Made by a program: the position numbers and the translations under genes. Shown here piece after piece: positions 5,158 through 22,882 of a stretch of 26,478 nt of DNA; the first letter of the stretch is position 1, and every line of letters starts with the position of its first letter. The notes under the pieces are model-generated. The model did no database searches and had not been told where the DNA came from. It worked only from the letters and a program-made list of their open reading frames with translations. This DNA is from a virus, in IMG/VR virus record IMGVR_UViG_3300003267_000437, positions 1-26,478 of that record; one strand, given 5' to 3'.

Positions 5158-5519
5158 ATCTGCCGGCCCGGGCGAATGGTGACGCACGCATAGGCCTTGA
5201 TCGTGAAGTCAACATGCTGCGCGGCGATCTGCGGAAGGAGGGTCGGCGCGGCGTGCCAGCACTGCTCCTCGGTGCGCACGTCCATGATGAACGCCGGCTC
5301 CACGCACGAGCTCGGATCGCTGGTGAGGCACGCGCGAACGACCAGCATGATCACGGGCTTCGTCTGCGCCTCGACCCGCTGCGCCGTCCCGAGCACGACG
5401 AGAAGCGCCCCGAGCGCGATCAGCGCGAAGACGTAGAGCTTCAGCCTGCCGGCGCCGTAGAGCAGCCAGAGGATGCCGAGAATGATCAGCACGAAGCCGA
5501 AGGCGGTGAGCACGCCCAT
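5154..5519 (-). CDS. Two-helix membrane protein with cysteine-containing periplasmic domain
   Basis: ATG 5519 is preferred over an upstream in-frame ATG because AAAGGAGA precedes it at normal spacing. The product is 121 residues, with two transmembrane helices at about residues 2-20 (GVLTAFGFVLIILGILWLLY) and 28-46 (LYVFALIALGALLVVLG). A periplasmic-type domain follows (MLVVRACLTSDPSSCVEPAF, then EEQCWHAAPTLLPQIAA and AYACVTI) with four cysteines. The gene follows the o-spanin after a gap of about 38 bp. Similar C-terminal domains occur in small exported alphaproteobacterial proteins without known role. Confidence 0.65.
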   Translation of the reverse strand: MGVLTAFGFVLIILGILWLLYGAGRLKLYVFALIALGALLVVLGTAQRVEAQTKPVIMLVVRACLTSDPSSCVEPAFIMDVRTEEQCWHAAPTLLPQIAAQHVDFTIKAYACVTIRPGRQI

Positions 5520-5557
5520 GGCCGTCTCCTTTTCGGGATCTTCAAAGAGAAAAAAGC

Positions 5558-5842
5558 TCAGTCCGCCTCGAGTACCGCGACCGACCGGGCGAGCGCGGCG
5601 TGCCGGCTTCCGCATTCCCTGAGAGCCGCCCTGTCGCGCGCCCAGAGACGCCCGACCTGAACATCGCTCGCCGTCTCCGGCGTCGTCGCCGGCGCGTCGC
5701 AGGGCTGAAGCAGCGAAGCATCGATCCGCGCGCGCGGCGGGGAAATCGCCCCCGAAAGCGCCGCCCGCCGCTCGGCGCTACCGAACGAGCTGCAGGACGC
5801 GAGGATCAAAAGGATTGGGAGCGCCGTGAGTTTTCGCATCAT
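5558..5842 (-). CDS. Rz1-like outer-membrane spanin lipoprotein
   Basis: This 94-residue lipoprotein has signal sequence MMRKLTALPILLILASC with a lipobox LASC and lipidated Cys17. The mature part is proline-containing (ISPPRARIDASLLQPCDAP) followed by a helical tail. The gene begins inside the 3' end of the upstream i-spanin gene, overlapping it by about 65 bp in another frame, the classic overlapping Rz/Rz1 arrangement. O-spanins link to the inner-membrane i-spanin across the periplasm and fuse the membranes in the last step of lysis. It is longer than lambda Rz1; a second cysteine at about residue 48 could dimerise. ATG 5842 or the next codon is the start. Confidence 0.8.
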   Translation of the reverse strand: MMRKLTALPILLILASCSSFGSAERRAALSGAISPPRARIDASLLQPCDAPATTPETASDVQVGRLWARDRAALRECGSRHAALARSVAVLEAD

Positions 5843-6170
5843 CCGCCTCGAGCTCCATCAGCCGCCGTTCGAACGTGTCCTCCTGGTCGCGCCGCCTTGC
5901 CTTCTCGTCGGCGAGGGTCACCGCGATGTTTCGGAGCTTCTCCTCGTCGGAGCGCCGGCGCTTCTCCTGCTCCGCCTTCAGCCGGCCGAGCTCAGCCCGC
6001 CATTTTTCGCGCTCGGCGGATGCGCCGGCGACGTAGCGCTCCGCCCCAAAAGCCTTCACCCGATGCGCGTGCCAGGCGAGCGCCGCGCCGAAGAGGGCGA
6101 TCGCGGCGACGAGCGCAGCCGCGATCGCGAGCGGCTTGCGAAACCGCCAGGCGAGCGCGAGCCAGGTCAT
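5778..6170 (-). CDS. Rz-like inner-membrane spanin
   Basis: The 130-residue product starts at ATG 6170 in an ATGA overlap with the holin-like gene. It has a transmembrane helix at about residues 14-33 (PLAIAAALVAAIALFGAALA) near the N-terminus. A long charged periplasmic coiled coil follows (EREKWRAELGRLKAEQEKRR, then NIAVTLADEKARRRDQEDTF), ending FDPRVLQLVR. This topology plus the embedded Rz1-like lipoprotein gene identifies the pair. Together the pair bridges inner and outer membranes and disrupts the outer membrane after endolysin action. Confidence 0.8.
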   Translation of the reverse strand: MTWLALAWRFRKPLAIAAALVAAIALFGAALAWHAHRVKAFGAERYVAGASAEREKWRAELGRLKAEQEKRRRSDEEKLRNIAVTLADEKARRRDQEDTFERRLMELEADDAKTHGAPNPFDPRVLQLVR

Positions 6171-9668: not shown

Positions 9669-9699
9669 AAAAAACAAGGTCGCGCCTTAAGGCGTGACC
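9669..9699 (-). terminator. Intrinsic terminator overlapping the gpX stop codon
   Basis: On the minus strand, GGTCACGCC-TTAA-GGCGCGACC forms a 9-bp stem with one mismatch. TTG and six T residues (9669-9674) follow it. The TAA stop of gpX lies in the loop. This is a good Rho-independent terminator shape inside the tail operon, before gpD. Confidence 0.7.
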
Positions 9700-9947
9700 G
9701 GACCATAGAGCCCGATCGCCGTGCCGAAGGCGGGCGAGCCCGACAGGATGTCCGGGTCGATCGGGATCCTCACCTGCAGCCCGACCGGCAGGAACGGGCC
9801 GTATTTGTGCACGCGCGCGAGATTCGGGTTGGCGTCGAGCATCGCCTCCAGCATGCCCGGCGCCGGCCGCCGATAGCGCCGCCAGATGAGCAGGTCCGCC
9901 GTCACGTCCTCCGCTTGGATCAGGACGGTCTCGAACGAGGCGATCAC
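9687..9947 (-). CDS. X: Tail protein gpX (LysM-like)
   Basis: The product is 86 residues from GTG 9947, preceded by GAGGGGAG at normal spacing. The same GTG context is preserved in the duplicated remnant at 10446-10484, supporting this start. The sequence begins VIASFETVLIQAEDVTADLL, then IWRRYRRPAPGMLEAMLDAN, PNLARVHKYGPFLPVGLQ and VRIPIDP, the gpX/LysM-like pattern of P2-type tail proteins. It is a small baseplate or tail-completion protein thought to bind peptidoglycan or other tail parts. It normally follows gpU directly; here two inverted cargo genes and a chimeric remnant separate them. Confidence 0.85.
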   Translation of the reverse strand: MIASFETVLIQAEDVTADLLIWRRYRRPAPGMLEAMLDANPNLARVHKYGPFLPVGLQVRIPIDPDILSGSPAFGTAIGLYGPVTP

Positions 9948-10004
9948 GTTGCGTCTCCCCTCGCCTTCGCCTTGAATGACGATCGCCAAAAAAGGGGGGC
10001 GCCC

Positions 10005-10382
10005 ATGGTGGCCGTCGCGACCGTGAAGGAGCTGAAGATCGACGAGGCCGGGATCGTCACGCTCGAATTGCAGTCCGACGATGGCCCGCTCACCGCAATT
10101 ATTCCGCGCGAGCGCGCAGTCGACAGCCTCATGAGTCTGCTGAAGGGGATAGCGCGCGCCTCCGAGAAGCCTGGCCCGGCCTATCGGATGCTGATCCAGC
10201 CGATCGGCTTTGCGGTCGAGCGGGTCGGTAACCCGGGGCAATCAGGAGCGGTCCCGTGCCTGAACCTCGAACTCGCGCCAGACACATACCTTCGGATTGC
10301 GCTGACGGTCGGATGGGCGCGAGCGCTGAGCGATGCGCTGTCGACTCTGGCAAAGGCAATGCAACCCGGATCGGCGCATTGA
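10005..10382 (+). CDS. Cargo gene A (moron) of unknown function, opposite to tail operon
   Basis: This 125-residue protein starts at ATG 10005, preceded by a strong AAGGGGGG. The N-terminus is VKELKIDEAGIVTLELQSDD, then IIPRERAVDSLMSLLKGIAR, a strand-rich stretch (RMLIQPIGFAVERV, then AVPCLNLELAPDTYLRIAL) and a C-terminal helix (WARALSDALSTLAKAMQP). It has no signal peptide, membrane segment or recognised domain. It points against the tail genes, converging with a gpU 3' remnant and diverging from gpX, so it needs its own promoter or antisense transcription. That is typical of a moron expressed in the lysogen. The C-terminal half follows the same strand/helix pattern as cargo gene B, suggesting distant relationship. 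Confidence 0.75.
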   Translation: MVAVATVKELKIDEAGIVTLELQSDDGPLTAIIPRERAVDSLMSLLKGIARASEKPGPAYRMLIQPIGFAVERVGNPGQSGAVPCLNLELAPDTYLRIALTVGWARALSDALSTLAKAMQPGSAH

Positions 10383-10394
10383 GCGGAAAGTCGG

Positions 10395-10484
10395 TCACGT
10401 CACCATCCTGAGCAGATCCCCCGATATAGCTTCCGGCGTCGCGCGGGATCAGCACGGTCTCGAACGAGGCGATCACGTTGCGTC
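10395..10484 (-). pseudogene. Chimeric remnant: gpX 5' end fused to gpU 3' end
   Basis: Bases 10446-10484 repeat the gpX start region 9917-9955 with one mismatch in 39. Bases 10395-10453 repeat the gpU 3' end (10984-11041) with three substitutions and one extra C. Read leftward, the frame begins VIASFETVLI as in gpX, then switches to PRDAGSYIGG as in gpU, joined at a shared GGATC. Order X-start then U-end is the reverse of the intact operon. It is what remains when two U-cargo-X segments are joined in tandem. Neither gene part is functional here. Confidence 0.85.
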
Positions 10485-10599
10485 CTCGAAGTCGCGGATC
10501 ATCAGGTCCCATCCTTGGCCACGAGCATGTCGATGTTTCGGCCCTGATGGTAGGGTCCCTCCGGGACAAGCGTTTCATAACACCCGGGGGTGAGCGCAA

Positions 10600-10980
10600 A
10601 TGTTGGTGTCGATAAGCCCGAAGAACGGTCGTGTTGAATGGGTCGCACGACAGGACCATAGGGAGTTAGCTTGGAGCTCTTCGTTATCGGAAGCTCAGGA
10701 CGTCCTTCAGGACCTCGCAAGCTCAATTGTCGAATTGCAGCGCGAACAGCAGCGAGCCGGGCCTGGAATTCTGGATCGTCCCGTCTTTGCCGACGTCTCC
10801 GATCCATCATTTCAGATAGCCTCCGACGAACAGGGACGCGCGGTCTTGGTCTTCGAGCTTACGATGCTCCCCCCTATCCGCTTCCATTTCGACGATTCAG
10901 ACATGCTGATGATCGCCAAGGCATTCACGGACATTCTCAGTCGGCCGAAGAGCGCTCGCGGTCCGGGGCACTATCACTAA
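10600..10980 (+). CDS. Cargo gene B (moron) of unknown function, opposite to tail operon
   Basis: This 126-residue protein starts at ATG 10600 after GGGGGTGAG. It reads MLVSISPKNGRVEWVARQDH, then LSEAQDVLQDLASSIVELQR, strands (DPSFQIASDEQGRAVLVFEL and IRFHFDD) and a helix (MLMIAKAFTDILSRP). There is no known domain, signal peptide or membrane segment. Base composition is clearly more AT-rich than the flanking tail genes, a usual sign of recent acquisition. It ends four bases before the gpU stop, tail to tail, and heads away from the gpX remnant. That is the same arrangement as cargo gene A. Both genes share the layout helix, F-x-[VI], hydrophobic strand ending E-L, then A-x-[AL]-x-D-x-L, so I treat them as possible distant paralogues. 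Confidence 0.72.
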   Translation: MLVSISPKNGRVEWVARQDHRELAWSSSLSEAQDVLQDLASSIVELQREQQRAGPGILDRPVFADVSDPSFQIASDEQGRAVLVFELTMLPPIRFHFDDSDMLMIAKAFTDILSRPKSARGPGHYH

Positions 10981-10983
10981 GGA

Positions 10984-11475
10984 TCACGTCACCATCCTGA
11001 GCAAATCCCCGACATAGCTTCCGGCGTCGCGCGGGATCGGCACGCGCACGAAGATCGCCTCGAACTCCACCACCTGGCCGATTCCGTCGATGGTGAGATG
11101 CTTGTGGCCGCGGATCAGCCGCTCGAGCACGAACCAGGCGTCGTCCTTGTCCCCGCCGCCGATCCTGTCGCCCGTCCCGTCGATCATCGGGTGCGGCAGC
11201 GCCTTCTCGCGCATTTCCTCCATCACCCCGAGCTCGTCGAGCCCGCCGAGGCGCAGCGGAAAGACCCGGCCGCGCATGTAGAGCTCGGCATCGTCCTCGC
11301 CGACATATTCGCGCGGCGGCCGCGCCCCGGCGATCTCCTTTTTCGCGAATTGCGCCGCGGTCAGAAGATCGTATTCGTGCGTGTTGAGCTCCGCGACGGT
11401 GAACTGCAGCGGCCCCCATTGCACGAGCGTGTTCCCCGTGTGCAGCAGGTCGTAGCGGCGCGGCGCGAATTCCAT
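10984..11475 (-). CDS. U: Tail protein gpU
   Basis: The 163-residue product starts at ATG 11475. It begins MEFAPRRYDLLHTGNTLVQW (residues 1-20), continuing GPLQFTVAELNTHEYDLL. Conserved features of the P2 gpU family follow: RPPREYVGEDDAELYMRGRV, the LGGLDELGVMEEMREKALPH block and GHKHLTIDGIGQVVEFEAIF, ending IPRDAGSYVGDLLRMVT. In P2-like phages gpU is a tail-terminator/completion protein. The 3' end is duplicated at 10395-10453. The gene lies just after the tape measure, as expected. Confidence 0.9.
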   Translation of the reverse strand: MEFAPRRYDLLHTGNTLVQWGPLQFTVAELNTHEYDLLTAAQFAKKEIAGARPPREYVGEDDAELYMRGRVFPLRLGGLDELGVMEEMREKALPHPMIDGTGDRIGGGDKDDAWFVLERLIRGHKHLTIDGIGQVVEFEAIFVRVPIPRDAGSYVGDLLRMVT

Positions 11476-21378: not shown

Positions 21379-22589
21379 TTCACGTCCTTGAGCAACGTCG
21401 CCACGATGAAGGTCGAGGACTTCACCTGGAAGAACAGCCAGTCCTCGGCGTTCGCCGCCGTGGAGAGGATCGGCGCGGAGCCGGCGACGAACTTCCACAC
21501 CGAGTTGTAGGAGAGCGTGCGGGAGCCGGTCGCGTCCTGCTTGATCACGATCACTCCGGAAAGCCCGTTCTTGGTGTGGGTCGGCGCGCCGAGCGTGCGG
21601 TTGCCGGCGATCGTCAGCGTCCGGTTCCAGCCGTCGTCGAGGTCGGTGGCGATCGTCGCCTGATCGGTCAGCGCCACGAAATCGGCCGACGACCACACTT
21701 TGTCGGTCGACAGGATCTTTGAGGCTGTGTTGTTCCGCCATTGCGCAAGCGTCGCGATGTCGGCGATCGCGATCTTTGTGGCGATCAGGCTGCTGATCGT
21801 CGCGGAAAAATTGGCGTCGTCGCCGAGCGCGTCGGCGAGCTCCTTCAGCGTGTTGAGGGCGCCTGGAGCGCCGGCGACCAGGTCGGCGAGGAAGGTGTCG
21901 ATCTGCGTCTTGGTGTAGTAGGTCGACGGATCGAAGAGCGCCGCGGCGATGGCGCTCGCCGCCGCCGCTGCGGCGCTTGCCGCCGCGGCGATCTTGCTCG
22001 CGCTCGCATCGGCTGCGGCCGGAACCGCCTCGTCGCGCGCCTCGACCGTCTCGTCCCGTGCGGCGAGCGTCGTCGCCGCGGCGTTGATCATGGCGAGCGC
22101 CGCGCCCGGCGTGCCGGAGATCACCCAGTCGTCGAACGGGCCGGGATCGCCGACAATCGAGACGATCTCGGCCGCGAGCTCGCCATGCTCGCGGTCGTAA
22201 TCGATGAGCTGCGCGATCGCGTAATCCTCGACCACGTCGTCGTGCTGCAGCACCAAAAAAGGCGGCGGCGTGAAGAGGTCGCGCTCCGCTCCCTCGTCGA
22301 TCGTGAAATGTGCGGTCGTGCTCTCCTCCAGGACGACTTCGGTCGCGCTGGTCGCCACCAGGAAGCCGAGGCTCGACACCGCCAGGATCTTTTCCATCGC
22401 CGGGAGCAGCACGGAATCGAGCCGCGCCAGGCCGACCTCGCGCAGGTCGAATAGCGCCGCGTCTATCGCCGGCTTCAGCGTCTCGATCGCGGCGAGCCGC
22501 GCCGCGATGTCGCCGGCGACGATCTTGTTCCACAGCGCCGCGTCGAGCACGGTGGTGCGGTTGACGGTGTAGCTCTGCGGTGCGGGCAT
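21375..22589 (-). CDS. Second tail fibre protein with related C-terminal domain
   Basis: The 404-residue product starts at ATG 22589. The N-terminal region ([20 protein letters not shown] and [20 protein letters not shown]) is a likely baseplate-attachment part. The middle has an Ala-rich helical stalk ([20 protein letters not shown]) followed by [20 protein letters not shown], the usual fibre motif. The C-terminal 115 residues ([32 protein letters not shown] and [15 protein letters not shown]) align with the end of the collagen-like fibre, more than half identical by eye. It is probably a connector or alternative receptor-binding fibre arising by duplication. Confidence 0.8.
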
Positions 22590-22617
22590 GCCTGTCGCTT
22601 GTGCTTCGCTGGACCTT

Positions 22618-22863
22618 CTAGCCGCGGGTCGGCGCGTCCTCGTCCCGTTCCACCGCGCCGTCGGCCTTGAGAGCCTCGAAGACCGCCGGGCTCACGGTGT
22701 AGGGGTTGTGCTTGGGGCTGAAGCGGAGCGCGCCGACGCGCGTCGCCTTCGACAGCCAGACTTTCTTCATCGCGGTCCCCGCTTCCGGCGACAGCGGGGT
22801 TTCAGAAACGGCTTCTCCCTCTCCCACCCCGGCGCCCGGGGCGGGCTGTTTCGCTTTGGCCAT
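22618..22863 (-). CDS. Small protein between tail/baseplate and fibre genes (81 aa)
   Basis: The 81-residue protein starts at ATG 22863 after AAGGA. The N-terminal 30 residues are low-complexity (KQPAPGAGVGEGEAVSETPL). The remainder, MKKVWLSKATRVGALRFSPK then NPYTVSPAVFEALKADGAVE, looks like a compact folded domain. It may be a small head/tail-associated or adaptor protein. No family is recognised. Confidence 0.6.
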   Translation of the reverse strand: MAKAKQPAPGAGVGEGEAVSETPLSPEAGTAMKKVWLSKATRVGALRFSPKHNPYTVSPAVFEALKADGAVERDEDAPTRG

Positions 22864-22882
22864 GAGTAAAGGTCCTTCGGGC

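Follow-up and report, generated by a model that had tools for sequence, protein, structure and literature searches.

Two opposite-strand accessory genes and a chimeric gpX/gpU scar at the gpU/gpX junction of a temperate phage with a P2-type tail module

Morons are genes of temperate phages that lie between genes adjacent in relatives, are of unlike composition, have their own promoter and terminator, and are expressed from the repressed prophage (PMC4378225). P2-like coliphages carry fun(Z) and three moron regions (PMC6823313, PMC8987985). The P2 examples, among them fun, tin, and old, confer immunity to other phages, and exchange of fun by site-specific recombination has been reported (PMC8987985). 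At the anti-phage hotspots of P2 and P4, which adjoin cos, genes turn over rapidly within a small locus bounded by two conserved phage genes (PMC9122126).

Herein, we analysed a stretch of 26,478 nucleotides of viral DNA (the window, IMG/VR record IMGVR_UViG_3300003267_000437), in which two genes, cargo-R and cargo-L, lie between the tail genes gpU and gpX. Like the morons of temperate phages, they are short genes between two adjacent phage genes and are absent in close relatives, and the composition of cargo-R is foreign. However, no promoter or terminator was recognised for them, and a chimeric piece of the two flanking genes links the occupants. As in fun(Z) and the moron regions of P2-like phages, variable genes stand between conserved genes of a P2-type phage, whereas here the position is U/X, the host group is another one, and a search of 9900-11060 found no flanking inverted repeats of the fun(Z) type. 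U/X is also, like the P2/P4 hotspots, a small variable locus between two conserved phage genes; unlike those hotspots, which adjoin cos, it is mostly empty, and its cargos have no PADLOC match. The type of slot is already known. What is new is an accessory slot at U/X, with a scar of double occupancy that is unusually legible.

The gpU/gpX interval and its chimeric scar

The window is a fragment of a temperate phage and carries an integrase gene at 1099-2247 (PHROG 1, E=1e-58), so that the temperate carrier typical of morons is present. Pfam and PHROG matches in order revealed a P2-type tail module on the minus strand, arranged as FI, FII, E, T, U, X, and D. The best annotated matches of the window were Microcystis phage Mae-JY30 and Aurantimonas phage AmM-1. 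Read along the minus strand, gpU is followed by cargo-R on the plus strand, a chimera of 90 bp, cargo-L on the plus strand, and gpX (Table 1). Cargo-R is convergent with gpU, and 4 bp separate its 3' end from the stop of gpU. The two cargos are co-directional, facing away from the late operon. The preliminary description had recognised two opposite-strand genes between gpU and gpX, split by a fusion of a gpX start to a gpU end; alignment of both repeats and homologs for both cargos confirmed this anatomy.

Table 1. Coordinates of the features of the gpU/gpX interval in the window
Feature	Position	Strand	Basis
gpU-like tail gene, intact	10984-11475	-	ORF of 163 aa; Pfam PF06995, E=1.3e-16
gpU-end repeat, intact copy	10984-11044	-	62-column alignment to 10395-10456
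cargo-R (cargo B of the preliminary description), 126 aa	10600-10980	+	homologs
Scar part 1: gpX start and 8 bases upstream	10446-10484	-	38/39 identical to 9917-9955
Scar crossover point: 11-bp X/U near-homology CGTGCTGATCC	10446-10456	-	overlap of both matches
Scar part 2: gpU end including stop region, 1-bp insertion	10395-10456	-	alignment to 10984-11044
cargo-L (cargo A of the preliminary description), 125 aa	10005-10382	+	homolog in Mu-like prophage
gpX-start repeat, intact copy	9917-9955	-	alignment to 10446-10484
gpX start codon GTG	9947-9945	-	
gpX-like tail protein gene, intact	9687-9947	-	PHROG 46, E=1.3e-9; by-eye alignment with L004 gpX

The single mismatch over 39 bp that had been noticed between the gpX-start copies was found again in our alignment. 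The match between the gpU-end copies, described as about 58 bp with a few changes and one indel, was slightly longer in our alignment (62 columns; 3 mismatches, 1 indel). The local alignment scores were 100 for the gpX-start pair and 57 for the gpU-end pair; when the slot was shuffled 300 times, the highest scores reached were 35 and 26, respectively. The flank copies of the scar are 93-97% alike, around cargos that are unlike each other. In the junctions of the collected relatives, no other copy of the scar was seen; the scar and the double load were found in the window alone.

The join had been described as a shared GGATC. This motif is present and is better described as the end of an 11-bp near-homology, CGT[G/C]C[T/C]GATCC on the minus strand, in which X and U match at 9 of 11 positions. 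The scar overlap CGTGCTGATCC corresponds to CGTCCTGATCC in the intact gpX and to CGTGCCGATCC in the intact gpU. At the sole gpX mismatch, the scar has G instead of C, as does gpU, indicating that this base may stem from the crossover and not from mutation. At the join, X and U share one reading frame, the 1-bp indel of the scar moves the frame past the U stop, and the codon use of the fused X/U frame is not phage-like. The chimeric scar is probably non-functional. In addition, ACGTGATC is present at both the gpU end and the gpX start in the window, and its copies bracket cargo-R and, with one mismatch, cargo-L too. This doubling may be a target duplication, or it may reflect the mere need for both a stop and a start.

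Several other features of the window were recorded. At the gpX stop, before gpD, a terminator-like hairpin lies on the minus strand at 9669-9699, with the structure GGTCACGCC-TTAA-GGCGCGACC (one mismatch) followed by TTGTTTTTT; its RNA fold z-score was -2.4 over a 61-nt stretch, and it might split gpX from gpD. A sequence resembling the 3' end of a tRNA or tmRNA gene (CTCTGACTCCGTCGATCTTGGTTCGAATCCAGGTTCCCCAGCCA) was observed at 2409-2452, about 160 bp after the integrase gene, and is possibly the core of an attachment site. ARAGORN and Rfam reported nothing at this position, and the window as a whole yielded no Rfam match and no whole tRNA. A DUF5131 (PF07505) homolog occupies 7-696 on the plus strand at the window end, upstream of an HTH_17-like gene and the integrase gene. 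A candidate opposite-strand gene at 22588-22869 on the plus strand was rejected, as the coding signature is in the minus-strand frame 22618-22863.

The U/X junction in related phages

Relatives were gathered by sheath alignment (115 loci) and gpU alignment (69 loci). Scans of viral contigs with single proteins, namely gpU, cargo-L, and cargo-R, gave no match, and the sheath alignment was needed to reach the relatives. Their named hosts include Hyphomicrobium, Rhizobium, Aquibium, Bauldia, Aestuariivirga, and several Rhodobacteraceae. As described for morons, the genes flanking the cargos are adjacent in these phages: the distance between gpU and gpX was no more than 49 bp in 102 of 115 distinct junctions, and in L004, the closest relative, the stop of U overlaps the start of X within GTGA. 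U/X was empty in about nine of ten relatives.

The occupied junctions carry a variety of unrelated genes. On the strand opposite to the late operon, we found DUF4440 in L093 (Aquibium), BrnT/BrnA in L201, and DUF3309 in both L152 and L153, whose loci are 87.6% identical and share the same insertion. On the same strand, DUF6527 occurs in L002 and in L053, L062 has a 67-aa protein, and L159 and L179/L200 have proteins of ~150 aa that are related to one another; L150 and L185 probably also carry same-strand genes. The opposite-strand cargos end 3-38 bp from the U stop and start 29-68 bp from the X start. The preliminary description had regarded the junction as a recurrent insertion slot for opposite-strand genes and had made this depend on relatives carrying cargo between U and X. 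Relatives do carry such cargo, and the unrelated families in L093, L152/L153, and L201 bear out the recurrence.

The strongest single evidence for insertion at U/X came from two near-identical phages. The junction is empty in L182 and occupied in L179. Their sequences agree to 99.98% on one side of it and to 99.85% on the other, and what separates them is an insert of ~500 bp standing in place of 3 bp exactly at U/X, indicating that the junction takes cargo without loss of either tail gene. Taken together, the unrelated occupants in other lineages and the clean insertion in near-identical phages indicate that U/X is an accessory-gene ("moron") slot.

U/X is not privileged in this respect, as inserts were about as frequent at other tail junctions. 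Gaps of at least 300 bp were found at FI/FII in 6 of 105 loci, at FII/E in 8 of 117, at E/T in 4 of 118, at T/U in 8 of 108, and at U/X in 6 of 114, and some of these gaps hold opposite-strand genes.

Some of the inserted genes have features of their own. The BrnT/BrnA toxin-antitoxin pair lies antisense between gpU and gpX at L201:5527-6007, with a hairpin and T-run between gpU and brnA. The phages L179 and L200, on the one hand, and L182 and L184, on the other, are near-identical and polymorphic at ~5438-5950 for the unannotated gene of ~150 aa at U/X. A relative with 66% identity occupies the same slot in L159, which suggests that this gene has an affinity for the U/X site; it is possibly a homing endonuclease. 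The motif YVYxIxVDGxxRYIGKG is found repeatedly in proteins encoded at other tail junctions, at T/U in L005 and at FI/FII in L014, L055, and L070, and by eye these proteins show a likeness to GIY-YIG nucleases.

The two cargo genes

Cargo-R belongs to an uncharacterised chromosomal family of Hyphomicrobiales. A profile built from chromosomal members only detected cargo-R at E=1.5e-8 among about 9,950 targets, with homology over nearly the full length. The family had clear matches in 8 of 398 genomes of the order (and one marginal match), and in one Hyphomicrobiales family it was found in 26 of 149 genomes, about one in six. Its chromosomal members (L207-L239) begin with MAGIS, are 126-157 aa long, and have a conserved terminal histidine. 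Unlike cargo-R, they sit in bacterial genomes, where no conserved neighbour was seen. Cargo-R is compositionally foreign to the phage: its GC content was 0.562, whereas the minimum over 312 tail-operon windows was 0.618, and its codon fit was -0.235, compared with 0.625 for gpU. The GC content of cargo-L, 0.643, was marginal, being near the 5% point of the tail windows.

The relative of cargo-L (G098 L126:1480-1872; 41-43% identity, E=9.5e-21) is located inside a Mu-like prophage with Mu-transpos_C, GemA, Gp27, terminase, and an S24 repressor. It is on the plus strand within the minus-strand early operon and is co-directional with the repressor, an orientation that would fit a lysogen-expressed gene.

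Neither cargo had an above-threshold match in Pfam, PHROG, NCBIfam, or PADLOC. The PADLOC result indicates no match to a catalogued defence family and is compatible with an uncatalogued defence function. No match was obtained by tblastn of both cargos or of the cargo-L homolog against phages, or of a cargo-R homolog and cargo-L against plasmids, and sequence searches of the PDB returned nothing usable. Consensus scans for sigma-70 promoters and intrinsic terminators found none for either cargo. Both cargos have intact frames with G-rich ribosome-binding-like stretches before the start. Since each has independent homologs at E<1e-7 over nearly the full length, both are real genes.

Proposed origin of the double occupancy and proposed role of the cargos

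We propose that alphaproteobacterial phages whose tail module is of the P2 type have a moron slot where the gpU stop overlaps the gpX start, that two occupied phages recombined out of register, and that the cargos are expressed in the lysogen, and we give this explanation as a whole a probability of about two in three (0.68). Accessory genes of short length enter exactly between U and X, damaging neither, and several of them lie on the strand opposite to the late operon. The parents, U-cargoR-X and U-cargoL-X, would have been two close phages whose opposite-strand occupants differed. Out-of-register recombination would then have joined the gpX of the first phage to the gpU of the second at the 11-bp near-homology, generating U-cargoR-(X'::U')-cargoL-X, in which each end has a complete tail gene and the chimeric scar lies midway. 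Flanks that are 93-97% alike around unlike cargos point to two close parents with different occupants.

A tandem recombination of two U-cargo-X segments from related phages had already been proposed in the preliminary description, and both the scar anatomy and the similarity of the flanks support it. That description had also anticipated that the gpU-gpX intervals of relatives would hold other genes as well as single-cargo versions with either gene. The former were found and the latter were not: a single-cargo parent was absent from the viral-contig protein scans, the tblastn searches against phages, the junctions of the relatives, and the DNA-pattern scans, in which the gpU end hit 11 unrelated contigs and the gpX start none. 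Because the scar is confined to this window and no single-cargo parent was found, the recombination history is what we infer to have happened.

The same arrangement might have arisen during assembly, as a chimera of two co-occurring phages with one cargo each. The record is an IMG/VR contig, and the scar was found in no other record. However, the only homology at the join is 11 bp with 2 mismatches, below the usual assembler k-mers, which leaves a chimeric read as a possible source, and we assign this origin a small chance. It would still need two single-cargo phages sharing the slot, so the slot itself would survive. A comparably slim chance is given to an exchange of cassettes by site-specific recombination, as reported for P2 fun, with the repeats as recombination sites. 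Both cargos do have the same conserved flanks; however, inverted repeats are lacking around them, and the repeats are the coding ends of tail genes, of which no copies were found at other occupied U/X loci.

If one U-cargo-X segment had been duplicated in tandem in a single phage and the cargos had then diverged, the two genes would have to be kin. They are of near-equal length, share a final histidine, and have a predicted beta-beta-beta-alpha start in low-confidence AlphaFold models from single sequences (pLDDT 50 and 58). Furthermore, hhalign gave a colinear match (P 0.0006-0.004), and in a search with a cargo-L profile a member of the chromosomal cargo-R family ranked first after the profile's own two sequences among ~9,950 targets (E=0.09). 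They could thus be distant kin, although BLASTP detected no pairwise similarity (E=6.0). As the profile of the wider chromosomal family did not find cargo-L, we do not claim kinship despite the suggestive profile-profile match. The scar flanks, which have no evident function, should have diverged along with the cargos after a duplication and are still 93-97% alike, making this scenario very improbable. Finally, that the cargos are spurious antisense ORFs in a degenerating region, as the lack of a promoter and of any Pfam, PHROG, NCBIfam, or PADLOC family might suggest, is practically negligible in view of their homologs, intact frames, and ribosome-binding-like stretches.

Returning to the recombination of two occupied phages, both cargos run in one direction, away from the late operon, and their homologs are a chromosomal host family and a gene of a prophage, and thus they are most likely expressed in the lysogen. 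There they would benefit the host and the prophage, for example, by superinfection exclusion or lysogenic conversion. This view of the cargos as lysogen-expressed helpers of the prophage or host, with superinfection exclusion as the first candidate, is a tentative one that we place well short of even odds; with neither a promoter nor a defence-family match, function is deduced from context and from the analogy to morons, to P2 fun, tin, and old, and to the P2/P4 hotspots, and the structural and evolutionary reading is much firmer than the functional one. It is also conceivable, although unlikely, that both cargos belong, as diverged members, to a single family of exclusion or immunity genes and that slot-to-slot recombination stacks alleles in one prophage. 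If so, a wider range of phages or conditions would be covered, and the scar would be a fossil of this stacking.

These results place an accessory slot where two tail genes overlap in alphaproteobacterial phages. The scar would be a legible record of the way in which two occupants of the same slot were brought together, through recombination that took place out of register over a few base pairs of similarity. The U/X slot can be used as an anchor for collecting uncharacterised genes of prophage benefit in Alphaproteobacteria, such as both cargo families described here.
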